NCBI GenBank assembly: GCA_900473175.1 | Contig: UCKM01000014.1 | Location: 62,001 to 126,000, forward strand | Origin: Hyphomicrobiales bacterium | GTDB lineage: Bacteria > Pseudomonadota > Alphaproteobacteria > Rhizobiales > Rhizobiaceae | Reading direction: 5' to 3' | DNA: 64,000 bases | In this document: positions 40,352-53,309 of the stretch, piece after piece | Position numbering within the stretch: the first letter of the stretch is position 1 | Layout: the number at the start of each line of letters is the position of its first letter | Translations under genes and position numbers: made by a program | Notes under the pieces: model-generated | What the model was told of the DNA's origin: nothing | What the model saw: the letters and a program-made list of their open reading frames with translations, nothing else | Databases searched by the model: none

Positions 40352-41359
40352 TTGCCCAGCGCCTCAAGGCTCGACATCGCGTCGTACATATTGTCGTTCA
40401 TCGCGCTCGCCGCTGTGCTTGAGCTCGGTTTGCTTTCGGCCCTCCTCGCAGGCCTCCTGGTGTATAATGTCGTACACCTTGCCGCGCCTTCGCTTGGCAA
40501 ACTCGGCGTCGACGGCCGGATCGCCAAGACCGTCGCGCTGGCTCTCTTTGCGCTGGTCTTCATCCTGTTGATCGTGGCCGCGGTCGTAAGCGGCCTGGCT
40601 CTCCTGACCGACGGATCGGAAGGCATTGCCTCGCTACTCAAAAAGATGGCCGAGATCATTGATACGACGCAGGTTCACCTGCCGGGCTGGGCCCGCGATT
40701 ATTTTCCGTCCAACCTCGAAGAACTCGAATCGCTGGCCGCCAGGTGGTTGCGGGAACATGCCGGCCAGCTGCAGCTCGTCGGCCGCGACTTTGGTATTCT
40801 CCTGGTCCGGATTGTCATTGGAATGATCATCGGCGGGATGATCGCCTTGAGTTCCGTCGCCCCGTCGCGAAAGCCGGGCCCTCTGGCGACGGCTCTGGCA
40901 CAGCGCATCGACCGCTTCAGCGATGCCTTTCGCAACATTGTTTTCTCGCAACTGCGAATCTCGGCACTGAACACGGTCTTTACCGGGATTTATCTCGTCG
41001 TCGTTCTGCCCTTCTTCGGCGTTGATCTGCCCCTCGTCAAAACCCTGATTGCCGTGACGTTCGTTGCAGGCCTTCTTCCGGTCATCGGCAATCTGATCTC
41101 CAACACGATCATCGTCATCGTTGCCCTGAGCGTCTCGCTGACGGCAGCAATCGGATCGCTCGCCTTCCTTATCATCATTCACAAGCTAGAATATTTCCTC
41201 AATGCCAAGATCATCGGCTCACGCATCAAATCAGGGGCCTGGGAGCTTCTGCTGGCGATGATCGTGCTTGAGGCATGGTACGGGATCGCCGGTCTTGTCG
41301 CAGCCCCGATCTACTACGCCTATCTCAAGGACGAGCTGAAACAAAAGGGCCTGATCTGA
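40352..41359 (+). CDS. AI-2E family transporter-like membrane protein
   Basis: The 335-residue membrane protein has the layout of the AI-2 exporter (TqsA/PerM/YdiK) family: paired N-terminal helices, a mid-protein amphipathic loop (about 90-145), and C-terminal helices. The family-like stretch LPVIGNLISNTIIVIVALS is followed by LEYFLNAKIIGSRIKSGAWELL. The start is a TTG with AGGT eight bases ahead; no ATG fits. Members export varied small molecules, and AI-2 transport should not be assumed. Confidence 0.82.
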   Translation: MPSASRLDIASYILSFIALAAVLELGLLSALLAGLLVYNVVHLAAPSLGKLGVDGRIAKTVALALFALVFILLIVAAVVSGLALLTDGSEGIASLLKKMAEIIDTTQVHLPGWARDYFPSNLEELESLAARWLREHAGQLQLVGRDFGILLVRIVIGMIIGGMIALSSVAPSRKPGPLATALAQRIDRFSDAFRNIVFSQLRISALNTVFTGIYLVVVLPFFGVDLPLVKTLIAVTFVAGLLPVIGNLISNTIIVIVALSVSLTAAIGSLAFLIIIHKLEYFLNAKIIGSRIKSGAWELLLAMIVLEAWYGIAGLVAAPIYYAYLKDELKQKGLI

Positions 41360-41549
41360 TCTGCCCGGTTAGCGTAGAAACGCCGCGCCTTCCCCAACAC
41401 CGACGTAGAGATGTGCCACCTTCGCCTAATTTGGTATTGCGGTTGCGGCGCAAATCTGAGATCGTTTGGGCAGCCCTGAATAGCAAACAAAAAAGAATGG
41501 GGTAACAAGGAGGAAACATAGTTCGCAATTCTCGTTGAGGAGTTCAACT

Positions 41550-41669
41550 ATGGTTTCACATTCCAGACATGCCGACATCCTTTCCTGGACCGCGGGTGGC
41601 TATCCGCAGGTTACGGCGATGCGCTTTGGTGCAGGGCGGACTGAGGGGGGAGGTCGCGATGAACGATAA
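41550..41669 (+). CDS. Small ORF (39 residues) coupled to the DUF982 gene
   Basis: An ATG with an excellent GAGGAG site seven bases upstream opens a 39-codon frame (MVSHSRHADILSWTAGGYPQ... ending GGGRDER). Its stop overlaps the DUF982 start by 11 bases, the arrangement of a translationally coupled leader. No family is recognised. It may be a leader peptide or a small protein. Confidence 0.45.
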   Translation: MVSHSRHADILSWTAGGYPQVTAMRFGAGRTEGGGRDER

Positions 41670-41916
41670 GACATTTTCATCACCGGTACGGATAAGCCTT
41701 GGCGCCATGGGGCTGCGATTGGTCGCTTCCGCATGGGAAGCGCTGGAGTGCTTGCGAAACCAGTGGCCGCAACAGGACGGACTGGAATATAAACGCGCCG
41801 TTCGCATCAATCGCGACGCGCTTGAGGGGTGGATGCCACCCGCCAAGGCGCGGCAGGCTTTTGTCAAGGCAGCTCAGCGCGCAGGTGTCTTCATCGACGA
41901 TCGGTCGAACAAGTAA
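41659..41916 (+). CDS. DUF982-domain protein
   Basis: This 85-residue protein has the DUF982 pattern: an opening strand (SSPVRISLGAMGLRLVASAWEAL), a Trp-Pro in LRNQWP, then YKRAVRINRDALEGWMPPAKARQAFVKAAQRAGV in outline. Such proteins are small, occur mostly in Rhizobiales, and have no known function. A GGGAGG site five bases before the Met fixes the start; a longer frame upstream lacks one. Confidence 0.8.
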   Translation: MNDKTFSSPVRISLGAMGLRLVASAWEALECLRNQWPQQDGLEYKRAVRINRDALEGWMPPAKARQAFVKAAQRAGVFIDDRSNK

Positions 41917-42231
41917 GCCTGAACGCAGCAGCCACTGACAGACCAGCGCTGCGACATACCTTAAGCGCGGCAATGAGGCCGCGCCGCAGCATGTGTGTGA
42001 CGCTCGGCGTCCTTGTCCCAAAGCCATCCCGGCCTTCGACGGTACAAATTCCCGTTCAACGTAACCGGCATTCTCTGTGTGCAGTGCAGCGACGAATCAT
42101 ACTTGATTTGTTTAGTAGAATGCGCATTACTCAACAACATTACTCAACATGATGGGAGAGATCATGCGGGTAACACGGGAACAACCACTTTTTGGGCGGC
42201 GCGACGTCGCTTAGGTATCTGGGAGGAAAGC
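41917..42231. other. Upstream region of the polyol-like operon
   Basis: The 315 bases before the binding-protein gene hold no convincing gene. Two 12-base copies of CATTACTCAACA lie at 42125-42136 and 42138-42149, a 13-base period. They could be binding sites for a regulator of the operon. A weak TTGATT sits at 42103. The operon's own ribosome site, GGGAGGAAAG, is just before 42232. Confidence 0.5.
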
Positions 42232-43557
42232 ATGCAGACGATAAAGCAAGCCCTGCTCGGGGCGACCTCGGCGCTGGTATTGTTCATGGCGCCAAGCCTG
42301 GCGAAGGCAGACGAACTGACATTGTGCTGGGCGGCCTGGGATCCGGCCAACGCCCTGGTTGAACTGTCCAAGGATTTTACTGCCAAGAGCGGTACTCAAA
42401 TGAAGTTCGAGTTCGTGCCATGGCCCAATTTTGCTGACCGTATTCTCAATGAACTCAATTCAGGCGGAAAACTTTGCGATCTTCTGATCGGCGACAGCCA
42501 GTGGATCGGCGGCTCCGCTGAAAATGGCTATTATGTGAAGCTCAATGATTTCTTCGACAAGGAAGGGATCAAGATGAGCGATTTCGCCGACGCAGCGGTC
42601 AACGCCTATTCGACCTGGCCGAAAGGCACGCCGAACTATTGGGCGCTGCCTGCCATGGGCGACGCCAATGCCTGGTTCTACCGCAAGGACTGGTTTGCCA
42701 AGCCCGAGATACAGGCTGAATTCAAGCAGAAGCACGGACGCGATCTTGCTCCTCCAAAGACCTGGGATGAGTTGAAGGAGGTCGCCGAATTCTTCAACGG
42801 TCGTGAGATCGATGGAAAGAAGGTCTATGGCGCCGCGATCTTCACCGAGCGCGCATCCGAAGGCATCACAATGGGCGCATCATCGGCGCTCTATTCCTAC
42901 GGTTTCAAGTATGAAAACACCCCCGGCAAATACGACATGGAGGGCGCCGTCAATTCGCCCGACGCTGTTGCCGGCCTTGAAGCATACAAGGAACTCTACA
43001 AATGCTGCACACCGCCCGGCTATACCGACGCCTATATGAGCGAAAGCCTCGATGCCTTCAAATCGGGCCAGGTTGCCATGGCGATGAACTGGTTCGCCTT
43101 CTTCCCGGGTCTCTACAAGGATGAAAAGGTGGGCGGTGACAAGATCGGATTCTTCGTCAATCCGAAGGAAAAAGTCGCCGCATCGACCCTCGGCGGACAG
43201 GGAATATCGGTCGTCTCCAACACGGATAACATGAAAGGCGCGCTGGCCTACATCAAATGGTTCGCCCAGCCGGATGTTCAAAAGAAGTGGTGGTCGCTTG
43301 GCGGCTATTCCGTGCACAAGGCGGTTCTGACCGACCCGTCCTTCCCGGAAAGTCAGCCTTTTGCCGCCGACTTCCTGGTGGCGATGAATCAGGTTCAGGA
43401 TTTCTGGCAGGAGCCATCCTATGCCATCCTGCTGCAAGCGATGCAGAAACGCCTCCACGATTATGTCGTCGCTGACAAGGGCACAGCCAAAGAAGCGCTC
43501 GACGGTCTGGTCAAGGATTGGACCGAAGTCTTCAAGGACGATGGGAAGCTCAACTAG
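42232..43557 (+). CDS. ABC importer binding protein (carbohydrate/polyol, family 1)
   Basis: The 441-residue receptor has a Sec signal (about 1-26, LFMAPSLAKA) and mature start DELTLCWAAWDPANALVELS. It is of the family 1 sugar-receptor type with many Trp and Phe residues (WPNFADRILN, MNWFAFFPG, VQKKWWSLGG). GGGAGG lies at proper spacing; a longer frame upstream is unsupported. It opens the cluster of two permeases, two ATPases and dihydroxyacetone-type kinases. From memory the set resembles rhizobial glycerol/polyol importers, so a small polyol or ketose is a fair guess. Confidence 0.9.
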   Translation: MQTIKQALLGATSALVLFMAPSLAKADELTLCWAAWDPANALVELSKDFTAKSGTQMKFEFVPWPNFADRILNELNSGGKLCDLLIGDSQWIGGSAENGYYVKLNDFFDKEGIKMSDFADAAVNAYSTWPKGTPNYWALPAMGDANAWFYRKDWFAKPEIQAEFKQKHGRDLAPPKTWDELKEVAEFFNGREIDGKKVYGAAIFTERASEGITMGASSALYSYGFKYENTPGKYDMEGAVNSPDAVAGLEAYKELYKCCTPPGYTDAYMSESLDAFKSGQVAMAMNWFAFFPGLYKDEKVGGDKIGFFVNPKEKVAASTLGGQGISVVSNTDNMKGALAYIKWFAQPDVQKKWWSLGGYSVHKAVLTDPSFPESQPFAADFLVAMNQVQDFWQEPSYAILLQAMQKRLHDYVVADKGTAKEALDGLVKDWTEVFKDDGKLN

Positions 43558-43573
43558 TTCGTCCTGAAATGAC

Positions 43574-43602
43574 TGCCCGGATAGGGTACTATACCGGGCA
43601 GC
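43574..43602 (+). other. Stem-loop between binding-protein and permease genes
   Basis: CTGCCCGG and CCGGGCAG pair across a 13-base loop in the 46-base gap. The stem ends one base before the permease ATG at 43604. It may slow permease translation or mark an mRNA processing point, as seen in two other ABC operons here. Confidence 0.55.
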
Positions 43603-43603
43603 C

Positions 43604-44596
43604 ATGCCAAAGTTCCGCAAAGAAACTCAGGTGACGTCTGTGACCGATACAAGTTCCTCCATTCTGGGGAAGGCCGCTCAGGCGACTCCGGCACCCCTCG
43701 CTTCGCGAATTCGCGGCATATCCGATCGGACCATGGCATGGCTGTTCATCACGCCTGCAATCGTCCTTTTGCTCGCAATCAATATTTTTCCGCTGATCTG
43801 GGCGGTCTATCTCTCGTTCACCAATTATCGGGCAAACCGCCCGAACGCTCCGCTCGAAAACGTCGGGCTCAGCAATTATAGCCGCGTCCTGAGCGACCCG
43901 AATATCTGGCAGGCGATGCAGACGACGGCGCATTTCGTCTTCTGGACGATTTTTCTGCAAACACTGATCGGGTTTTCGCTCGCCTATCTGATCGACCGGA
44001 AGTTCCGCGGCCATGCATTCTGGACAACCGTCATCCTCGTTCCGATGATGCTGTCACCCGCCGTCGTCGGCAATTTCTGGCGTTTTCTCTACCAACCGCA
44101 GATCGGCCTTTTCAACTATATCGTCTCCTTCCTCACCGGTATTCCGCCGTCCTCATTCGAGATGCTGGGTTCGGTCCAGCTTTCGCCATGGGCCATCATC
44201 ATCGTCGATACCTGGATGTGGACGCCCTATGTCATGCTGATCTGCCTGGCCGGTCTGCGGTCGATCCCCGACTATATCTATGAGGCTGCCGAAGTGGATC
44301 GCGCATCGCTGTGGCGCCAGTTCTGGTCGATTACCCTGCCCATGGCACTTCCCTTCATAATGCTGGCAGTGCTCTTCCGTGGCATCGAAAACTTCAAGAT
44401 GTTCGACATGGTAACGCTTCTGACCGGCGGCGGTCCGGGATCAACGACCGAAGTCGCCTCTATCACGCTGAAGCGGGAAGCGTTTGAAAGCTGGCGCACG
44501 GGACGGGCATCCGCCTTCGCCATCATTCTGTTCGTTGCGGTGTTTGGCCTTGCCAACATCTATGTGAAAGCACTCAACAAGGTGAAGCAGCGATGA
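43604..44596 (+). CDS. ABC permease (MalF type) of the polyol-like importer
   Basis: The 330-residue permease has six membrane segments after a cytoplasmic arm of about 45 residues. The ATPase-contact loop is YIYEAAEVDRASLWRQFWSITLP. The ATG at 43604 follows a hairpin without a good ribosome site; a GTG at 43631 is a possible alternative start. It pairs with the next gene, with which it overlaps by four bases. Confidence 0.9.
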   Translation: MPKFRKETQVTSVTDTSSSILGKAAQATPAPLASRIRGISDRTMAWLFITPAIVLLLAINIFPLIWAVYLSFTNYRANRPNAPLENVGLSNYSRVLSDPNIWQAMQTTAHFVFWTIFLQTLIGFSLAYLIDRKFRGHAFWTTVILVPMMLSPAVVGNFWRFLYQPQIGLFNYIVSFLTGIPPSSFEMLGSVQLSPWAIIIVDTWMWTPYVMLICLAGLRSIPDYIYEAAEVDRASLWRQFWSITLPMALPFIMLAVLFRGIENFKMFDMVTLLTGGGPGSTTEVASITLKREAFESWRTGRASAFAIILFVAVFGLANIYVKALNKVKQR

Positions 44597-45546
44597 GTTC
44601 TGTCAATTCTGCCCATTCCGTCGTTGAGCCGGGCGCCATGTCGAAACGCATCGCGGCAAGCATCGTCATCGCCTATGCGGTGATCACGATGATCCCGCTG
44701 GTCTGGATCTTCATGACAAGCTTCAAGTCGCCGCCCGATTCGATCAGCTACCCGCCGAAGATCATGTTTCAGCCGACGCTTGAAGGCTATTGCAACCTGT
44801 TTACGACGCGCACCCGCCAAACGTCCGAATACATAGCCTCGCTCGGTACTCCGACAAGCACTTGCGATGAAACCACACGTAGCCGCAATATGGTGATTGC
44901 AGGTCCGTCGAATTATTGGCCGCGTTTCAAGAATTCGCTGTTGATCGCGTTCGGCTCGACCTTTCTTGCCGTGTCGCTCGGAACGCTCGCGGCCTACGGG
45001 TTCTCGCGCTTCAGGGTGCCGCTCGCCGACGACCTTCTGTTTTTCATTCTGTCGACGCGCATGATGCCGCCTATCGCCGTCGCGATCCCCATCTATCTGA
45101 TGTATCGCCAGCTTGGCCTGTCAGACACGGCGCTCGGGATGATCCTCCTCTATACGGCCGTCAATGTTTCACTCGCAGTCTGGCTCCTCAAGGGTTTCAT
45201 CGACGAGATACCGCGCGAGTATGAAGAGGCGGCCATGATCGACGGCTATACGCGCATGCAGGCATTCTTCAAGGTTGTCCTGCCGCAGGCGACCACAGGC
45301 ATCGCCGCGACCGCAATCTTCTGCCTGATCTTTGCGTGGAACGAATATGCCTTTGCCGTATTGCTGACCTCGGGCGAAGCCCAGACGGCGCCACCTTTCA
45401 TTCCAACAATCATCGGCGAGGGCGGTCAGGATTGGCCCGCCGTTGCAGCCGCAACCACGATCTTCCTCGTTCCCATACTGGTTTTCACGATCCTTCTGCG
45501 CAAGCAGCTGCTGCGTGGCATCACCTTTGGAGCTGTACGGAAATGA
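44593..45546 (+). CDS. ABC permease (MalG type) with a large periplasmic loop
   Basis: The 317-residue permease carries the loop EYEEAAMIDGYTRMQAFFKVVLP for ATPase contact. A long first periplasmic loop (about residues 50-110) holds two cysteines, Cys67 and Cys91, that could bond. Its stop overlaps the ATG of the following small membrane protein (ATGA). Confidence 0.9.
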   Translation: MSSVNSAHSVVEPGAMSKRIAASIVIAYAVITMIPLVWIFMTSFKSPPDSISYPPKIMFQPTLEGYCNLFTTRTRQTSEYIASLGTPTSTCDETTRSRNMVIAGPSNYWPRFKNSLLIAFGSTFLAVSLGTLAAYGFSRFRVPLADDLLFFILSTRMMPPIAVAIPIYLMYRQLGLSDTALGMILLYTAVNVSLAVWLLKGFIDEIPREYEEAAMIDGYTRMQAFFKVVLPQATTGIAATAIFCLIFAWNEYAFAVLLTSGEAQTAPPFIPTIIGEGGQDWPAVAAATTIFLVPILVFTILLRKQLLRGITFGAVRK

Positions 45547-45749
45547 CTGTCCAGGCACCTCACACGTCAAAGCAGAAGCGGCCTTTCTTCCTGAGGCGGG
45601 GGCCGATGGAAAACATCGCGACGGCGATCATTGGCCTTGGCTTTCTGATGCTGTTCCAGCCATTCCTTCTCGTCCTTTACACCTGGTCGCTCGTCACGCT
45701 GCTGACGGGAACCGTCCTCTTCATCATTGTTTCGAAGTTCCCGGAGTAG
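45543..45749 (+). CDS. Small membrane protein of the importer operon
   Basis: This 68-residue protein has a basic N terminus (SKQKRPFFLRRGP) and two hydrophobic helices at about residues 25-44 and 46-64. It sits between the permease and ATPase genes, with an ATGA overlap upstream and three bases downstream. Small hydrophobic proteins of this kind occur in glycerol-type importer operons, but its role is unknown. It could stabilise the permeases or the ATPase heterodimer. Confidence 0.7.
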   Translation: MTVQAPHTSKQKRPFFLRRGPMENIATAIIGLGFLMLFQPFLLVLYTWSLVTLLTGTVLFIIVSKFPE

Positions 45750-45752
45750 GCG

Positions 45753-46850
45753 ATGGCGGAGATCAGAATAGAAAATCTGCGCAAGGAATTTGGTGCCTTT
45801 GTCGCGGTGGAGGATTCGAGCTTTGTCGTACGAGACGGCGAATTTCTGGCGCTGCTTGGGCCCTCCGGTTGTGGCAAGACAACGACATTGCGCATGATTG
45901 CCGGTCTGGAACTTCCGACCAGCGGCAGGATTTTCCTTGGCGGCGAAGATGTCACGCTCAATCGGGCGAGGGAGCGCGATATCGCCTTTGTCTTTCAGCT
46001 CTTTGCCCTCTATCCGCACATGAACGTGCGCAAGAACATCGGCTTTCCGCTGGTCGCCCAAGGCGTCTCCAAGGCAGAAATCCGCTCCCGTGTCGAGGAG
46101 ACGGCAAGGCTTTTGCAGATCAACAATATTCTGGATCGATCGGTATCCGGGCTTGCCGGCGGGGACCGCCAGCGCGTGGCGCTTGGCCGTGCGATCGTCC
46201 GTCGGCCGAAATGCTTCCTCATGGACGAACCGCTTGGCACGCTGGATGCAGAATTCCGCGATCTGATGGTGCGGGAGCTGCGCGAACTGCACAACCGGAT
46301 CCACGCAACCACTGTTTACGTCACCCATGATCAACTTGAGGCAATGGCGATGGCTGACAAGATCGCTGTAATGAACCATGGGATCATCGAGCAGTTCGGC
46401 ACGCCTCAGGAAATCTATAACCGGCCGGCCACCATGTATGTCGCCGACTTCATCGGTTCCCCGCCGATGAATTTTCTGCGGTTCCGATCGAGCCTGCAGA
46501 AGGGCGTCCGTTCCGTGTCGGTGGATGGCGTGGCTATTGCCGTGCCGGAAGTTCATCAGGATATGGCGGAGGGCGAACTCGCGCTCGGTGTGCGTCCCGA
46601 GGATATTCGTTTCAGTGACGCTTCAGCCCTGCGCGGCGCGGTCTATGGAAGCGAATATCACGGGACCAACCAGATCGTCGCAGTCGAGATGGGAAATGGG
46701 TTGGTCAAGGCGCGGGTTCCGGCTGACCAGAATTTTCAGATCGGTGAAACGGTCGGACTTGAACTCAACCACAGCAAGCTGTCGCTTTTCGACTGCGCGT
46801 CGGGACGCGCAGTCGCGTCATCCCGCTATGCGGAGGCTCATCATGGCTGA
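45753..46850 (+). CDS. ABC ATPase 1, degenerate signature motif
   Basis: The 365-residue MalK-type ATPase has Walker A LLGPSGCGKTTTLR, Walker B CFLMDEPLGTLD, and H-loop VYVTHDQLEAMAMAD. The signature is LAGGDRQRVALGRAI instead of LSGGQ. The Q-loop reads VFQLFALYPH. A TOBE-like C-terminal domain follows. It is encoded directly before a second, canonical ATPase, so the motor is probably a heterodimer with one altered site. It overlaps the next gene by eight bases. Confidence 0.9.
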   Translation: MAEIRIENLRKEFGAFVAVEDSSFVVRDGEFLALLGPSGCGKTTTLRMIAGLELPTSGRIFLGGEDVTLNRARERDIAFVFQLFALYPHMNVRKNIGFPLVAQGVSKAEIRSRVEETARLLQINNILDRSVSGLAGGDRQRVALGRAIVRRPKCFLMDEPLGTLDAEFRDLMVRELRELHNRIHATTVYVTHDQLEAMAMADKIAVMNHGIIEQFGTPQEIYNRPATMYVADFIGSPPMNFLRFRSSLQKGVRSVSVDGVAIAVPEVHQDMAEGELALGVRPEDIRFSDASALRGAVYGSEYHGTNQIVAVEMGNGLVKARVPADQNFQIGETVGLELNHSKLSLFDCASGRAVASSRYAEAHHG

Positions 46851-47850
46851 AGTCATACTCAAAGGGATCAGCAAGAGCTTCGGGGAAACCCGGGCCGTTT
46901 CGAATCTCGACCTGATTATCGCAGACGGGGAGTGCGTGGTGCTGCTCGGCCCGACAGGGGCGGGCAAGACCACAACGCTGCGCCTGATCGCGGGACTGGA
47001 GCGGGCCGACAGCGGCCGCATTACCATCGGCGGCTACGATGTGGCGCAAGAAGCTCCGGCGGGCCGGGATGTGGCCTTCGTGTTTCAGCAGTACTCGCTC
47101 TATCCGCATCTCTCCGTCTACGAGAACCTTGCCTTTCCGCTCCGCTCACCCGCCCGCCGCCTTGGCAAGGACGAGATCGACCGGCGCGTTCGCGACGTGG
47201 CCCGCATGGTGCGCATCGACCACAAGCTCGAGAACCGCTCGACCCGCCTTTCGGGTGGGGAGATGCAGCGTGTCGCTATTGGCCGGGCGCTGGTGCGGCG
47301 GCCTTCGATCTTTCTGATGGATGAGCCGCTCTCGTCGCTCGACGCCAAACTGCGGGCGGAACTGCGCCTCGAACTGAAACGCATCCAGAAAGAACTCGGA
47401 GCGACGCTGCTTTACGTGACGCATGACCAGATAGAAGCGATGACCATGGCGGACCGCATTGGCATTCTGGCCGAGGGCCGCTTGGTGCAGATCGGAACTC
47501 CACGCGACATCTACAGCAACCCGGCCAACACCCACGTGGCGGCCCGGCTTGGGCAACCGCATATCAACCTCATTCCTGTCGATGTGCTTCCCGATGGCAG
47601 GGCCCCGGCCGGAACACGTACTGTCGGAGCACGCACCGAACATCTGGAAATATCGTTGGGCGGTAATGCCAATGCGCAGATCGACTGGGTCGAACATCTC
47701 GGCGATCAGAATCACCTGCACATCAGGGTCGGCGATTGCAAACTCATAACCCTGGCCAATCCCTATCTTCCGGTGAAACCAGGAGACAAGATAGGACTTG
47801 CACTCAAGAACCCGCTTTATTTTGGTGCTGACGGAAACAGGATGTACTGA
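46843..47850 (+). CDS. ABC ATPase 2, canonical
   Basis: The 335-residue MalK-type ATPase has Walker A LLGPTGAGKTTTLR, signature LSGGEMQRVAIGRAL, Walker B IFLMDEPLSSLD, H-loop LYVTHDQIEAMTMAD, and a shorter TOBE domain. The ATG within the first ATPase's last codons, preceded by CGGAGG, is the start. It is the likely partner of ATPase 1 with a complete signature. Confidence 0.92.
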   Translation: MAEVILKGISKSFGETRAVSNLDLIIADGECVVLLGPTGAGKTTTLRLIAGLERADSGRITIGGYDVAQEAPAGRDVAFVFQQYSLYPHLSVYENLAFPLRSPARRLGKDEIDRRVRDVARMVRIDHKLENRSTRLSGGEMQRVAIGRALVRRPSIFLMDEPLSSLDAKLRAELRLELKRIQKELGATLLYVTHDQIEAMTMADRIGILAEGRLVQIGTPRDIYSNPANTHVAARLGQPHINLIPVDVLPDGRAPAGTRTVGARTEHLEISLGGNANAQIDWVEHLGDQNHLHIRVGDCKLITLANPYLPVKPGDKIGLALKNPLYFGADGNRMY

Positions 47851-47914
47851 CCTTATCGGTCCGCGCCACGTTGGTTCGGGCCCATGAAACGAAGCAATAG
47901 ACTGGAAGATGCCG

Positions 47915-49594
47915 ATGAAACACTTTTTCAACCGTAGGGAAAATATCGTCACCGAGGCGCTTGACGGTCTCCTGCAGACCAGCCGCCCGGGGATGCTTGC
48001 GCGGCTGGACAGCTATCCGGACATCAAGGTGATCCTTCGTGCAGATTGGGACAAGTCGAGGGTTGCGGTCATATCGGGTGGCGGCGCCGGCCACGAACCC
48101 TCCCATGCCGGCTTTGTCGGAAAGGGAATGCTCACTGCGGCAGTATCTGGTGAAATCTTCGCCTCTCCCAGCGTCGATGCGGTTCTCACCGCCATTCGGG
48201 CGGTGACGGGCCCGGAAGGTTGCCTGCTGGTGGTGAAGAATTATACCGGCGACCGGTTGAATTTCGGCCTTGCCGCCGAACGGGCCCGGGCCAAAGGGTT
48301 CAAAGTGGAAATGGTCATCGTCGCGGACGACATCGCGCTGCCAGATCTCGCCCAGCCGCGCGGCATTGCGGGCACATTGTTCATCCACAAGATCGCAGGG
48401 TTCCTTGCTGAACGGGGTGACGCACTCGAAGACATCGCCGCCAAAGCTGCCGCTGCCGCGCGAGAAATCGTATCGCTCGGCGTTTCCCTCTCCACCTGTT
48501 CCATCCCTGGACAGGCACATGAATCGCGCCTCGGTGCCGAAGAGGGCGAACTCGGCCTTGGCATTCATGGCGAGCCCGGCGCCGAACGTTTCCCGGTCCA
48601 GGCTTCGGGCAAGATCGTTGGGGTCATGGCGGAACGGCTTGCGGCGGTGTTGCCGGGCACCGGCGACTACGCGCTGTTGATCAACAATCTCGGAGCGGTA
48701 CCGCCGCTCGAAATGAGCCTGATCGCGCACGACGTTCTGGCATCGTCGCTAGCCGACCGCGTGAAATTTGTCGTCGGCCCGTCACCGATGATGACAGCGC
48801 TCAACATGAACGGCTTTTCGCTATCGCTCATACGCCTCGATGCGGAGCGTGAGGCCGCACTTGTCTCATCGGTCGAACCGCATGCGTGGGTTCCTCCGGT
48901 GGTGCGTCATGGCGCGAACATTGTTCCGGCCCCGGCGCCCGTCATTGGTGAAGCGCTTGCTCCAGCCAGCCCGGACCCGTTCACCGAGACGATCGTGACC
49001 GCCATTTGCCAACACCTCGTTGCGCTCGAAGCCGAACTCAATCGTCTGGATGCCCGTACAGGCGACGGCGATACCGGTTCAACGGTTGCCGCTGGCGCCC
49101 GCGGAATTCTCAGCCAGATCAAGTCATTACCCCTTGCCGATACGGCCGGCACGCTTGCGGCGATTGGCGGAAGCCTCGCGACCAGTATGGGCGGCTCGAG
49201 CGGCGTGCTGCTTTCCATATTCTTCACCGCAGCCGCCAAGGCGATGGCTGGTACCGGCAATCTGCCGGGAGCTCTGTCGGCAGGTCTTGACCGCATGACG
49301 TTTTACGGCGGCGCGGGGCCGGGCGACCGGACGATGGTCGATGCCCTCGATCCCGCATTGCGAGCGCTGGCGACTGGCGGGATTGCGGCCGCGGCCAGGG
49401 CGGCCCGCGCTGGCGCCACCGCGACAAGCGCGATGACCAAGGCAAATGCCGGCCGCTCATCCTATGTAGGCGAAAGGGACCTCGACGGCGTTGCCGATCC
49501 GGGTGCGATCGCCGTCGCAGAGACGTTCGAGATCGTGGCCACGGTGCTTTCAGGTGAACAGGCGCGCGGGGAGGCTTCATTCGTTGCAGACTGA
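47915..49594 (+). CDS. Dihydroxyacetone kinase, DhaK-DhaL fusion (ATP-dependent type)
   Basis: This 559-residue protein fuses a DhaK substrate domain (about 1-330) to a DhaL nucleotide domain (about 350-559), as in single-chain ATP-dependent kinases. DhaK shows SGGGAGHEPSHAG and, near residue 218, LGLGIHGEPG, whose His binds the keto group. DhaL shows RTGDGDTGST (metal-binding Asp residues) and SMGGSSGVL. Substrates in the family include dihydroxyacetone, glyceraldehyde and erythrulose. The ATG six bases after GGAAG is used. Downstream genes encode a second, PTS-type set. Confidence 0.9.
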   Translation: MKHFFNRRENIVTEALDGLLQTSRPGMLARLDSYPDIKVILRADWDKSRVAVISGGGAGHEPSHAGFVGKGMLTAAVSGEIFASPSVDAVLTAIRAVTGPEGCLLVVKNYTGDRLNFGLAAERARAKGFKVEMVIVADDIALPDLAQPRGIAGTLFIHKIAGFLAERGDALEDIAAKAAAAAREIVSLGVSLSTCSIPGQAHESRLGAEEGELGLGIHGEPGAERFPVQASGKIVGVMAERLAAVLPGTGDYALLINNLGAVPPLEMSLIAHDVLASSLADRVKFVVGPSPMMTALNMNGFSLSLIRLDAEREAALVSSVEPHAWVPPVVRHGANIVPAPAPVIGEALAPASPDPFTETIVTAICQHLVALEAELNRLDARTGDGDTGSTVAAGARGILSQIKSLPLADTAGTLAAIGGSLATSMGGSSGVLLSIFFTAAAKAMAGTGNLPGALSAGLDRMTFYGGAGPGDRTMVDALDPALRALATGGIAAAARAARAGATATSAMTKANAGRSSYVGERDLDGVADPGAIAVAETFEIVATVLSGEQARGEASFVAD

Positions 49595-50198
49595 CCGGAC
49601 GCTCATCCTAGGATTGATCGAAACATGCAGGGAGGTGATCGCTGCCCATGCCGATCACCTGTGCGAACTCGATCGGGCAATAGGGGATGGCGATCACGGC
49701 ACAAACATGCGGCGCGGCTGCGATGCGGTCTATGTCGATCGTGATCGCTTGAGCGGCATGCCACTGGCGCAGGCGCTCGAAAAGATCGGACTGACACTGG
49801 TCATGAATATCGGCGGCGCATCCGGCCCGCTTTATGGAACGCTGCTGATCGAGATGGGACGAAAGCTTGGGTCGAATGCGCACAAAACCAACTTTGCTGC
49901 CATCGTCGGGGAAGCGATTGATGCCGTCGCGAGGCGCGGGCGTTCCCAAGAGGGTGACAAGACACTGCTCGATGTGCTCTATCCAGTTCACACTGAAATG
50001 GTCAGACAGTCTGCCCTTGTCCGTATAGCCGATACGGCAAAGGAATCCGCTCAACTGACCGCTGGCATGAGGGCCATGCGGGGGCGAGCGTCCTTTCTTG
50101 GAGATCGGTCCATCGGCCATGTCGATCCCGGGGCATCGAGCTGTGCCCTCCTGGCAACGGCCATCTGCCACTATCTGAAGGAGTACCGTCCGGCATGA
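49584..50198 (+). CDS. dhaL: DhaL-type kinase subunit
   Basis: This 204-residue protein matches DhaL: LDRAIGDGDHGTNMRRG near residues 27-43 supplies the metal-binding aspartates, and MNIGGASGPLYGTLL the nucleotide loop. In the PTS-dependent system it holds ADP/ATP and transfers phosphate to DhaK's substrate. The start is a TTG nine bases after GGGGAGG; no ATG fits. It overlaps the fusion kinase by 11 bases and dhaM by four. Confidence 0.88.
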   Translation: MQTDRTLILGLIETCREVIAAHADHLCELDRAIGDGDHGTNMRRGCDAVYVDRDRLSGMPLAQALEKIGLTLVMNIGGASGPLYGTLLIEMGRKLGSNAHKTNFAAIVGEAIDAVARRGRSQEGDKTLLDVLYPVHTEMVRQSALVRIADTAKESAQLTAGMRAMRGRASFLGDRSIGHVDPGASSCALLATAICHYLKEYRPA

Positions 50199-50596
50199 AC
50201 GGCAAGATCGCAAACGTCGGAATTGTGATTGTCTCACACTCACCGCTCGTGGCAAAAGGCACGGCCGATATGGTCCGCCAAATGGTTGGTGATGGTGTGC
50301 CTCTCTCATGGTGTGGCGGCAATGCCGAGGGCGGTCTCGGCACCAATACTGCGGGTATTCTCGAGGCTATCGAGGCGGCCTGGTCGGATCACGGCGTTGC
50401 TGTCTTCGTCGATCTTGGCGGCGCAGAAACGAATAGTGAGATGGCAATCGAGATGCTGGGCCAACCGCGCTCGGGGCTCGTCGCCATCTGCAACGCCCCG
50501 ATCGTGGAGGGTGCAGTCATTGCCGCGGCAGAGGCATCCGGTGGGGCGTCGCTTGCCAAGGTGGTCGCCACGGCGGAGGAACTCTCGCCCTCATGA
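50195..50596 (+). CDS. dhaM: DhaM-like PTS EIIA protein
   Basis: The 133-residue protein is an EIIA-mannose-type domain as in DhaM. The phospho-accepting His15 sits in VGIVIVSHSPLVAKG. It lacks the HPr and EI-like domains that E. coli DhaM carries; HPr is encoded separately by the next gene. It relays phosphate from HPr to the nucleotide on DhaL. Confidence 0.88.
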   Translation: MNGKIANVGIVIVSHSPLVAKGTADMVRQMVGDGVPLSWCGGNAEGGLGTNTAGILEAIEAAWSDHGVAVFVDLGGAETNSEMAIEMLGQPRSGLVAICNAPIVEGAVIAAAEASGGASLAKVVATAEELSPS

Positions 50597-50958
50597 GCAA
50601 CAAGCGCGATGCAACCCTCAAGGACCACACAAAGCTGTCGGCGGAGTGGCAGACCGAAATCGAGGTCCAGCATGGAATCGGCTTCCACGCGCGGCCATCG
50701 GTAATCTTCACCCGCCTTGCTAAATCGTTCCCCTGCACGATCGAGATCGAGGTCAACGGCAGCAGCGTCTGGCTGAATGGCAAAAGCATCGTGAAGGTGA
50801 TGGGAGCCAAGATCCGCAAGGGTTCCATTCTCAAGATCCGCGCCGACGGAATCCGGGCGGCGGAGGCGATCGCCGCATTGAAAGAACTGGTCGAAGGCAA
50901 TTTCGACGAGGCGAAAACCCATCCGCGCAACCCAGGCGGTCCCAAGGCGGAGACATAG
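50593..50958 (+). CDS. HPr-family phosphocarrier
   Basis: The 121-residue protein has a HPr domain with the phosphorylation site GIGFHARPS (His32) and the second site NGKSIVKVM (Ser65), which matches the regulatory Ser region. Extra segments of about 20 residues at each end make it longer than usual HPr (about 88). It is encoded between dhaM and a small regulator-like gene. No EI gene is in the window, so its phosphate donor must lie elsewhere, perhaps a nitrogen-PTS EI. Confidence 0.9.
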   Translation: MSNKRDATLKDHTKLSAEWQTEIEVQHGIGFHARPSVIFTRLAKSFPCTIEIEVNGSSVWLNGKSIVKVMGAKIRKGSILKIRADGIRAAEAIAALKELVEGNFDEAKTHPRNPGGPKAET

Positions 50959-50959
50959 A

Positions 50960-51370
50960 ATGGCACGGGAGCCCATGGAAGACGCCATTGTCGGTTACAA
51001 GACGATTCTCGCCCAGATCATCGACAACCGCCCCTCCGGGACGCGCCAGCGCCTTGCCGCAGCGCTCGGCAAGCACCGCAGTTTCGTTACCCAGATTACA
51101 AGTCCGGCCTATTCCACCCCACTGCCGGCGCGTCATCTCGCGACGATTTTCAGGGTCTGTCACTTCAGTCCCGCTGAACAGGAGCGGTTTGTCGAAGTCT
51201 ATCACGCAGCGCATCCGGGAAAACTGCCGGACTTCGGCAGTACTGACGGATTGCGGCCACTGTCGCTGATGGTCCCCGACCTTGGGGATGCAAAGAAAAA
51301 TCATCTGCTGGATGAGGCCATTACTGATTTTGTCCAGAAGATTGCGATGCTCCTGAGCAACACGGATTAG
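50960..51370 (+). CDS. Small HTH-like protein, unrecognised family
   Basis: The 136-residue protein starts with a helical part, TRQRLAAALGKHRSFVTQIT, that looks like a phage-repressor-type helix-turn-helix at about residues 28-47. An acidic, helical C-terminal part follows (about 85-136). I cannot name a family. It lies one base after the HPr gene and just before a nested palindrome and a dhaK gene, so a regulator sensing kinase or PTS state is plausible. GGAG lies about eight bases ahead of the start. Confidence 0.6.
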   Translation: MAREPMEDAIVGYKTILAQIIDNRPSGTRQRLAAALGKHRSFVTQITSPAYSTPLPARHLATIFRVCHFSPAEQERFVEVYHAAHPGKLPDFGSTDGLRPLSLMVPDLGDAKKNHLLDEAITDFVQKIAMLLSNTD

Positions 51371-51414
51371 GCGGTACACGCATGAATAGGGCGCTATTCA
51401 TGCATTTGCCGCCT
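51369..51414. promoter_or_regulatory. Nested palindrome between the HTH gene and dhaK
   Basis: An inner dyad GCATGAATAG / CTATTCATGC with a GGCG centre (51380-51403) is enclosed, after 5-base spacers on each side, by AGGCGG and CCGCCT (51369-51374, 51409-51414). The 46 bases are symmetric about one point. It fits an operator for the adjacent HTH protein, or a strong RNA hairpin stopping transcription before dhaK. TATATGAT just downstream could be a -10 element for dhaK. Confidence 0.65.
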
Positions 51415-51456
51415 AGTATATGATCAGGCGATAATCGCTGCCGGAGGAGGGGCGCG

Positions 51457-52446
51457 ATGAAGAAATTCATGAACAAGGCCGAGTCCATGGTCGCGGAAAG
51501 CCTGGAAGGCTTTGTCTTGGCCAATGAACGCCTGGTCATGTTCGGGTCGGACCGGAAATTTGTCCGGCGGCGCCATCTTGTGCCGGGAAAAGTCGCCATC
51601 ATCTCCGGAGGCGGGGCGGGTCATGAGCCCCTGCATGTCGGCTTTGTCGGTCAGGGGATGCTGGATGCCGCCTGTACCGGCCATATCTTTACCTCCCCGA
51701 CACCTGACCAGATCATTGCCGCCATCGAAGAAACCGACACCGGCGCGGGATGCCTGCTGATCGTCAAAAACTATGACGGCGATGTGATGAATTTCGAAAT
51801 GGCCGCCGAGACATTGGCGGGCCGCCATCGCATCGAAATTGTGATCGTGAGTGATGATGCTGCAGCCTATGGCGCGGCGCGAAGTTCTGGCCGCAGGGGC
51901 GTTGCCGGGACATTGATTGTCGAGAAGGTACTTGGCGCAGCCGCCGAAGCAGGGGTGGGTCTTGTCGACCTAAAGCAACTCGGCGAGCGGCTGGGCAAGC
52001 AAATTCGCACTATCGGCGTCGCGCTCGGCGGCGTTACCGTTCCGGACACGGCGCGGGCGACTTTCTTGCTCGAACCTGACGAGATGGAAGTAGGGGTAGG
52101 GATTCACGGCGAGCCGGGGGTTTCCCGCCAAAGATTGGCCGATGCTGACGCCATCGCCGCAATGCTCTGCGACACGATCCTCGCGGATCAGGGGATGCGA
52201 AATGCGGGCGTACCGGCCTTGCTCCTGGTGAATGGCTTCGGCGGAACCCCAACGCCGGAATTATACCTGATCTACAATGTGGCCCGCCGCCTGATTGAGG
52301 CGCGTGGCATCAGGATTGTCAGATCGCTGGTGGGAACCTATGTGACATCGCTCGATATGGCAGGGTTATCGGTTACCTTGTCCTTTCTGGACGATGAGAC
52401 GCTTCGACTTTGGGACGCGCCGGTATTGACGGCCGCCCTGCGCTGA
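51457..52446 (+). CDS. dhaK: DhaK-type dihydroxyacetone kinase subunit
   Basis: The 329-residue protein is a standalone DhaK: ISGGGAGHEPLHVG near residue 50 and VGVGIHGEPG near residue 216, whose His would hold the ketone as a hemiaminal. It is the natural partner of the separate DhaL and DhaM genes, giving a PTS-type kinase. GGAGGAGG lies ahead of the ATG. Substrate specificity (dihydroxyacetone, erythrulose or similar) cannot be read. Confidence 0.9.
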   Translation: MKKFMNKAESMVAESLEGFVLANERLVMFGSDRKFVRRRHLVPGKVAIISGGGAGHEPLHVGFVGQGMLDAACTGHIFTSPTPDQIIAAIEETDTGAGCLLIVKNYDGDVMNFEMAAETLAGRHRIEIVIVSDDAAAYGAARSSGRRGVAGTLIVEKVLGAAAEAGVGLVDLKQLGERLGKQIRTIGVALGGVTVPDTARATFLLEPDEMEVGVGIHGEPGVSRQRLADADAIAAMLCDTILADQGMRNAGVPALLLVNGFGGTPTPELYLIYNVARRLIEARGIRIVRSLVGTYVTSLDMAGLSVTLSFLDDETLRLWDAPVLTAALR

Positions 52447-52538
52447 TAACCCGTTTTGCCCCCACGCTTGGCGAGGCTTGCGAATGATGCAAGTAATGGT
52501 CACCGTTTCACCGTTGGCAAGCAGGATCGACAGCCCGG

Positions 52539-53309
52539 ATGAAGATCGCCACCTATAACATCAACAACATCAACAAGCGCCTTTCAAACCTGTTGCAGTG
52601 GCTGGAGGATTCCAGACCTGATGTCGTATGCCTGCAGGAATTGAAGTGCGAGGATGCTAAGTTTCCTGCCGCTCAATTGAGCGACGCTGGATACGAGGCC
52701 GTCTGGAAAGGTCAAAGATCGTGGAACGGGGTTGCCATTCTGGCTAAGGGCAAGGAGCCAATTCTGACACGCGACCGGCTCCCGGGCGACGAGGACGATT
52801 TGCAGAGCCGCTACATCGAGGCAGCTGTCAACGGCGTCCTCATAGCAAGCATCTATCTGCCGAACGGCAATCCGCAACCGGGCCCCAAGTTCAACTACAA
52901 GCTCGCCTGGTTCAAGCGTCTGCACAAGCACGCCGCAGATCTCTTCCAATTGGAGGTCCCAGCCGTGCTCGCAGGGGATTTAAACGTCGTGCCAACGGAT
53001 TTTGACATCTACAATACCCGCTCGTGGAAAGACAACGCCCTGCTTCAACCGGAAAGCCGGGCGGCGTTTCGCAAACTCGTCCAGCAGGGCTGGGTCGATG
53101 CCGTGCGCGAATTCCATCCGAAGGACCCGATGTATTCGTTCTGGCACTATATGCGCAATGCGTGGGAGCGGGATGCGGGCCTGCGACTGGATATGCTACT
53201 GCTCTCGCCATCGAGCGCCGCACGTCTGCAGGGTGCCGGGGTGGAACGGAATGAACGCGCAAAGTTCAACGCCAGCGATCATGCGCCAACCTGGATTGAA
53301 CTGAGTTAA
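52539..53309 (+). CDS. xth: Exodeoxyribonuclease III / AP endonuclease
   Basis: The 256-residue enzyme has the EEP-fold catalytic set: Glu34 in VCLQELKCED, Asp147 and Asn149 in AGDLNVVPTDFD, and Asp247 and His248 at SDHAPTW. It repairs abasic and damaged 3-prime ends. Length is normal for the family. It is a single gene following the kinase cluster. Confidence 0.93.
   Translation: MKIATYNINNINKRLSNLLQWLEDSRPDVVCLQELKCEDAKFPAAQLSDAGYEAVWKGQRSWNGVAILAKGKEPILTRDRLPGDEDDLQSRYIEAAVNGVLIASIYLPNGNPQPGPKFNYKLAWFKRLHKHAADLFQLEVPAVLAGDLNVVPTDFDIYNTRSWKDNALLQPESRAAFRKLVQQGWVDAVREFHPKDPMYSFWHYMRNAWERDAGLRLDMLLLSPSSAARLQGAGVERNERAKFNASDHAPTWIELS

Follow-up and report, generated by a model that had tools for sequence, protein, structure and literature searches.

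An ABC importer operon with two dihydroxyacetone-type kinase sets and a deleted enzyme I gene in a Hyphomicrobiales bacterium

The 64,000-nucleotide window analyzed here (positions 62001-126000 of contig C26, UCKM01000014.1, in a 4.88-Mb assembly of 45 contigs from a Hyphomicrobiales bacterium) carries on its forward strand, between positions 42232 and 52446, an ATP-binding cassette (ABC) importer followed by two sets of genes of the dihydroxyacetone (DHA) kinase type, all in the order in which an earlier note had named them. With moderate confidence, this locus is read from its sequence as an operon for the uptake and phosphorylation of a small ketose, most likely DHA, with a second kinase set that would depend on a foreign enzyme I (EI). 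In this scenario, of which we infer the substrate, the trans-acting EI and the role of the regulator, the importer would take in the ketose unmodified, and a DhaK-DhaL fusion would phosphorylate it using ATP. The set powered by phosphoenolpyruvate (PEP), consisting of DhaK, DhaL, DhaM and HPr, the own EI of which has been deleted, would need a different EI to prime HPr or DhaM; the likeliest candidate is the HPr-EI fusion of the genome's sorbitol phosphotransferase system (PTS), otherwise PtsP. A helix-turn-helix (HTH) regulator would accompany the PTS set and replace the LacI regulator of most loci in which the fusion is the sole kinase.

The missing enzyme I gene

EI, the entry point of the PTS, is absent from the window operon, and the chain leading from EI via HPr to DhaM is not encoded together. 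The proposal of the earlier note that the locus possesses its own PTS relay fails because the EI gene has been deleted. In relatives, this gene of about 1.6 kb sits between the HPr and the HTH gene. The HTH protein was found in 33 of the 199 family genomes searched, the own genome included; the other 32 share the same PTS gene order (28 of them also with the importer), the HPr-HTH gap measures 1.6-1.9 kb in the 31 family loci where HPr was resolved, and EI was found by tblastn in 32/32. It was also found in 75 of 80 named loci, among which close relatives are over-represented, since these are the best 80 of 353. After combination of the named loci, the 32 family loci and the window, and removal of identical HTH sequences, 107 distinct loci were obtained; with gene presence scored at 40% identity or more, EI is present in 101 of them and absent in six, namely the window, Candidatus Phyllobacterium onerii, P. 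trifolii, P. bourgognense, Phyllobacterium sp. KW56 and P. endophyticum. It is kept in P. sophorae, P. brassicacearum and P. zundukense. A DhaM of at least 91% identity occurs in 10 of 20 Phyllobacterium genomes (window included; two further genomes give weak matches), and three of these ten contain an EI of operon size (548-551 amino acids). In place of a close match to the operon DhaM, one Phyllobacterium genome (L236, G201:C3) has an 832-amino acid frame that carries motifs of EIIA-Man, HPr and EI, as in the classical multidomain form of DhaM.

In the other EI-less loci that were read, the HPr stop codon is kept and 62-66 bp are left before the HTH gene. At the window scar, the usual HPr stop is lost, HPr carries seven additional C-terminal residues compared with P. 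sophorae, and one base remains before the HTH gene. In a tree built from eight operon genes, the window branches off outside the clade of EI-bearing and other EI-less species with a support of 100. The different scars and this tree position suggest two separate EI deletions as the simplest reading; alternatively, a single loss may have been followed by a regain. Relocation of the operon EI to another site of the genome was considered and rejected, with three PEP-utilizers_C matches found, none of the operon type, in an assembly of 97.94% completeness.

The own genome does encode an HPr-EI fusion, located in an operon with GutM, EII-GUT, EIIBC-GUT and EIIA-gut (sorbitol PTS), and a PtsP with GAF and EI domains; the third EI-type match, of 907 amino acids, is probably pyruvate phosphate dikinase, judged by its size. 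In 20 of 20 Phyllobacterium genomes an EI match lies in a frame of 649-682 amino acids, which is the size of an HPr-EI fusion, and the HPr part was seen in four of them. Among the other 32 HTH-bearing family genomes, all of which have kept the operon EI, four (G073, G086, G155, G160) have an additional EI with a score of more than 350 bits; six further family genomes give a match of 815-968 amino acids near 205 bits, and the two of these that were read show no HPr motif. Cross-talk between PTS branches is described for Pseudomonas in the excerpts available of PMC13104625. As a tentative proposal, the DhaM-HPr relay of EI-less Phyllobacterium may be driven by the sorbitol-PTS HPr-EI, which would tie PEP-powered DHA phosphorylation and the state that the HTH regulator senses to sorbitol metabolism; the gain of the ATP-dependent fusion would have relaxed the constraint on the operon EI, and two lineages would have been rewired independently.

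It is rather unlikely, if conceivable, that DhaL, DhaM, HPr and DhaK represent a leftover, the ATP-dependent fusion having taken over, EI having been lost and the remainder decaying slowly without function. The apparent double loss of EI would fit such a course of events, as would the divergence rates of the PTS branch. In disjoint pairs of loci at importer distances of 0.10-0.25 (27 fusion-bearing, 8 fusion-free), the median ratio of gene distance to importer distance is 3.17 with the fusion vs 2.03 without it for EI (approximately 1.6-fold faster) and 2.32 vs 1.17 for DhaK (approximately 2-fold faster), where the pairs are related by descent and the fusion-free and fusion-bearing taxa differ, with mean importer distances of 0.184 vs 0.156. 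DhaL (2.23 vs 1.66), HPr (1.87 vs 1.53) and DhaM (1.23 vs 0.97) follow the same direction, and the HTH gene is lower with the fusion (1.59 vs 1.93). From these higher ratios in fusion-bearing operons, a second kinase is seen to go with apparently weaker constraint on the PTS branch, of which the window would be an extreme case. Degeneration of EI in fusion-bearing operons, suggested by a narrow regular expression as loss of the active site, was dismissed; upon alignment, 110 of 110 distinct EIs keep the residues that we take to be the active-site equivalents (His189, Arg296, Arg332, Glu431, Asn454, Arg465 and Cys502 in E. coli numbering).

Against a leftover stands the fact that the EI-less loci keep open genes with catalytic motifs and that all of them, in the 107-locus set as well as in the set of 27 importer-anchored loci described below, retain HPr and DhaM. 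The ratio of nonsynonymous to synonymous substitution rates (dN/dS) of HPr is 0.063 in 15 EI-less pairs vs 0.087 in 3 EI-bearing pairs, and that of the HTH gene is 0.089 vs 0.075; both remain close to the low values of EI-bearing species, and the low value of HPr after loss of EI speaks for continued use. The dN/dS of the window DhaM compared with EI-bearing species is 0.026.

A fixed importer with exchangeable kinases

The importer adjoins 102 of the 107 distinct HTH loci, and at least two of the five exceptions lie at contig ends. For an importer-anchored view, permease 2 was searched at E 1e-90 in 289 class-level genomes, 18 of which matched; the 17 matches other than the own genome and 10 plasmid records chosen from 40 listed gave 27 loci. 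In 27/27 a DHA-type kinase gene directly follows the second ATPase, so that the combination of importer and kinases is conserved as a unit, as had been proposed, and the parts are found together rather than scattered over the genomes. In seven annotated loci no gene lies between importer and kinase; this arrangement fits direct import of a ketose, and with it the earlier assumption that the imported compound is already a ketose. The two kinase sets themselves are separable and do not make up a fixed pair. The fusion is present alone in 13 loci, DhaL plus DhaK alone in four, the PTS set alone in eight, and fusion plus PTS set in two. As the fusion-only loci are devoid of PTS genes, the suggested contrast between ATP and PTS phosphate is a sensible one. 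The importer is known from alpha- and betaproteobacteria. In one locus (L216) DhaK is encoded on the other strand. In two very small genomes of about 1.4 Mb (L222, L224) the importer stands with DhaL and DhaK, and no match to DhaM, HPr, EI or the HTH protein was found beside it.

The regulators vary together with the kinases. The HTH gene is present in 10/10 importer-anchored loci with the PTS set and in 0/17 without it, and a LacI relative is found near 12 of the 13 fusion-only loci, the exception having 1.6 kb of upstream sequence. Near PTS-bearing loci a LacI relative occurs in 3 of 42; most of these 42 have an upstream room of approximately 3-5 kb, and L228 and L061 have hardly any. Two of the four DhaL plus DhaK loci have weak LacI relatives (31-36%) nearby. 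Because kinase sets and regulator types vary behind the same importer, they appear to act as cassettes behind a fixed importer, with phosphorylation of a DHA-like ketose as the common element.

The linkage of HTH gene and PTS set, together with the predicted DNA binding of the HTH protein and its retention after loss of EI, would also be compatible with the PTS set of fusion-bearing operons being a sensor, the HTH protein reading whether DhaL, DhaM or DhaK is phosphorylated or carries ligand and adjusting the expression of the operon accordingly, and the fusion being responsible for catalysis. The regulator DhaR of E. coli is a target of both DhaK and DhaL. This explanation is considered unlikely. 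The HTH gene also accompanies a PTS set that is the sole kinase, so that sensing need not replace catalysis; in addition, the palindrome of the window is not shared by relatives, and no conserved operator emerged.

The import of another small ketose or related compound (erythrulose, apulose, hydroxyacetone) or of glycerol, with kinases that are not DHA kinases in vivo, is possible, though not probable. DhaK-DhaL fusions acting on erythrulose are known, yet were not found in the literature searched. The permeases are similar to those for maltose and glycerol-3-phosphate, and sugar enzymes are found near some loci: two aldo/keto reductases in Ensifer canadensis, a sugar-phosphate isomerase and a Gfo/Idh oxidoreductase in Ruegeria, and an FGGY kinase with a second DhaK/DhaL pair in R. 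rosettiformans. However, these neighboring enzymes vary between loci, and no dehydrogenase, isomerase or aldolase is present within the importer-kinase unit of the window. Since the same importer pairs with different arrangements of DHA-type kinases, the shared substrate should suit all of them. The binding proteins of the named loci (L106-L185; two of the 80 loci have none) split into groups of 67-71% and 86-96% identity to the window, their permease 2 spanning 85-94%; the two groups may reflect swapped or retuned binding proteins.

Several findings weigh against uptake and phosphorylation of DHA with a foreign EI. The dN/dS of DhaM is 0.124 in the 15 EI-less pairs vs 0.024 in the 3 EI-bearing ones, which may indicate some relaxation and slow decay and would favor a leftover. 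Loss of EI is seen in one genus only, Phyllobacterium. Genomes of this genus that keep the operon EI also carry the sorbitol-type EI, the presence of which permits but does not predict the loss. In a small EI tree, the operon EIs group with a classical EIIA-HPr-EI protein, apart from the sorbitol EI, which is therefore no close substitute. The sugar enzymes mentioned above lie within a few kb of some other loci, at which the substrate could thus be different. The fusion kinase matches TIGR02361 (ATP-dependent glycerone kinase) over nearly its full length but reaches 523.8 bits against a cut-off of 574.95, and DhaK is likewise below its cut-off (404.0 vs 406.25 bits). The best solved match of the binding protein is a trehalose/maltose-binding protein, and the solved homologues give no ligand.

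Gene assignments, regulator and hairpin

Coordinates of the features are compiled in Table 1. Family models were taken from Pfam and NCBIfam, curated cut-offs from NCBIfam. Binding protein, two permeases and a MalK/UgpC-like ATPase with TOBE domain fit the SBP_bac_1/MalFG carbohydrate type of importer, to which the second ATPase and the small membrane protein are additions; the latter gave no family match in the scan. DhaK, DhaL and the EIIA-Man protein DhaM are present with catalytic motifs, and DhaL and DhaM score above their cut-offs (TIGR02365, 195.4 vs 138.3 bits; TIGR02364, 135.7 vs 98.25 bits). Across loci, which were not deduplicated for this count, the catalytic motifs are kept in DhaM (125/125), HPr (125/125) and DhaK (128/128). 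The close spacing or overlap of the genes from binding protein to DhaK suggests one transcript. Promoter and terminator scans gave 4 and 12 hits vs shuffled means of 3.5 and 9.1 and were set aside, and no Rfam element was found in 41300-53000 at the gathering threshold.

Table 1. Features of the importer-kinase locus (window coordinates)
Feature	Position	Strand	Basis
ABC binding protein (SBP_bac_1), 441 aa	42232..43557	+	Pfam/NCBIfam
ABC permease 1, MalF/UgpA-like (BPD_transp_1)	43604..44596	+	Pfam/NCBIfam
ABC permease 2, MalG/UgpE-like (BPD_transp_1); anchor for importer orthologues	44593..45546	+	
Small membrane protein, 68 aa, between permease 2 and ATPase 1	45543..45749	+	annotated P. zundukense counterpart
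ABC ATPase 1 (ABC_tran + TOBE_2)	45753..46850	+	Pfam/NCBIfam
ABC ATPase 2 (ABC_tran + TOBE_2)	46843..47850	+	Pfam/NCBIfam
DhaK-DhaL fusion kinase (Dak1 + Dak2), ATP-dependent type by homology; motifs GGGAGHEP, KNYTGD, GIHGE, GDGDTG	47909..49594	+	
DhaL (Dak2), 204 aa; motif GDGDHG; TTG start set by comparison, 11-nt overlap with fusion	49584..50198	+	
DhaM, single EIIA-Man domain; motif VSHS	50195..50596	+	
HPr (PTS-HPr); motifs FHARP, GKS	50593..50958	+	
Scar of deleted enzyme I gene, approximate place, limits by eye	50925..50959	+	
HTH protein, 136 aa, predicted lambda-repressor/XRE-like domain + C-terminal helix	50960..51370	+	
Hairpin with 10-bp arms in its core (51380-51403) and a longer stem around it	51366..51417	+	
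DhaK (Dak1); motifs GGGAGHEP, KNYDGD, GIHGE	51457..52446	+	

The closest matches of the HTH protein are those of P. sophorae and P. brassicacearum (89%), by which the genome is probably that of a Phyllobacterium; no Pfam or NCBIfam model matches the protein. Its predicted structure (pLDDT, the predicted local distance difference test, 83.5) comprises five helices and a C-terminal helix, and the top five PDB matches are to lambda cI and a restriction controller protein, with probabilities of 0.93-0.99 and weak E-values of 0.24-0.37. A lambda-repressor-like fold is thus predicted, and the protein is probably the regulator of the operon.

The strong palindrome which the earlier note had placed beside the HTH gene is indeed exact, with 10-bp arms, and unique in the genome; its sequence is expected 0.01 times per window with up to three mismatches. 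It lies at the center of a hairpin whose fold is more favorable than that of any of 200 shuffled sequences (z -4.76). As a conserved operator it was rejected: among the 107 distinct loci, only L150 and L044 reach a repeat score as high in the gap, with unrelated sequences, and the folds of 13 relatives are unlike it. Not being seen at that place in relatives, the hairpin is treated as a local RNA or DNA element and not as an operator. In R. miluonense (L150) an unrelated repeat with longer arms occupies the same gap between HTH gene and dhaK.

Relation to known systems

Summarizing, an importer whose substrate was found nowhere named gains a testable substrate class, since all 27 importer-anchored loci adjoin a DHA-type kinase. 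The locus also offers a natural experiment in PTS evolution: behind one importer, ATP- and PEP-dependent kinase cassettes are exchangeable and come with different types of regulator, and after apparently two separate EI deletions HPr and its acceptor have stayed intact, with purifying selection still acting on them.

The PTS version of the system is already in print for Bradyrhizobium, and the EI-less form with two kinases is a variant of it. Beyond PMC5017801 and PMC2405797, no paper was recognized in the literature search as describing the cluster; the excerpts available of PMC3333776 and PMC3599248 contain nothing on it, and those of PMC5017801 and PMC2405797 do not name the transported substrate. 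According to PMC5017801, the cluster blr3566-blr3577 of Bradyrhizobium diazoefficiens is induced together in a blr7984 mutant, by 4.2- to 24.3-fold for eleven of its genes, and its expression is lower in bacteroids. As in the window, the order is binding protein, two permeases, small hypothetical protein, two ATPases, DhaL, EIIA-Man, HPr, hypothetical protein and DhaK; unlike the window, the gene list includes EI and no fusion kinase (PMC5017801). Separate ptsH and ptsI genes in an operon with DHA kinase are reported for M. loti and B. japonicum, and these M. loti and Bradyrhizobium clusters retain EI, in contrast to the window; an HPr-EI in a glucitol-type PTS operon is found in M. loti as in the genome of the window (PMC2405797). 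The excerpts available of this paper mention neither the importer nor the HTH gene. The glucitol HPr-EI is grouped in PMC2405797 with the EIIA-HPr-EI proteins of DHA kinase systems, but not in the small EI tree obtained here.

With the DhaKLM system of E. coli the window shares DhaK, DhaL and DhaM, used with PTS phosphate, and with the ATP-dependent glycerone kinase (TIGR02361) the Dak1-Dak2 fusion, albeit at a score below the curated cut-off. The E. coli system has no ABC importer and is regulated by DhaR; its DhaM combines several domains, among them HPr and EI-like parts, whereas that of the window consists of a single EIIA-Man domain. Two ATPases are also a feature of the rhizobial glycerol importer GlpSTPQV.

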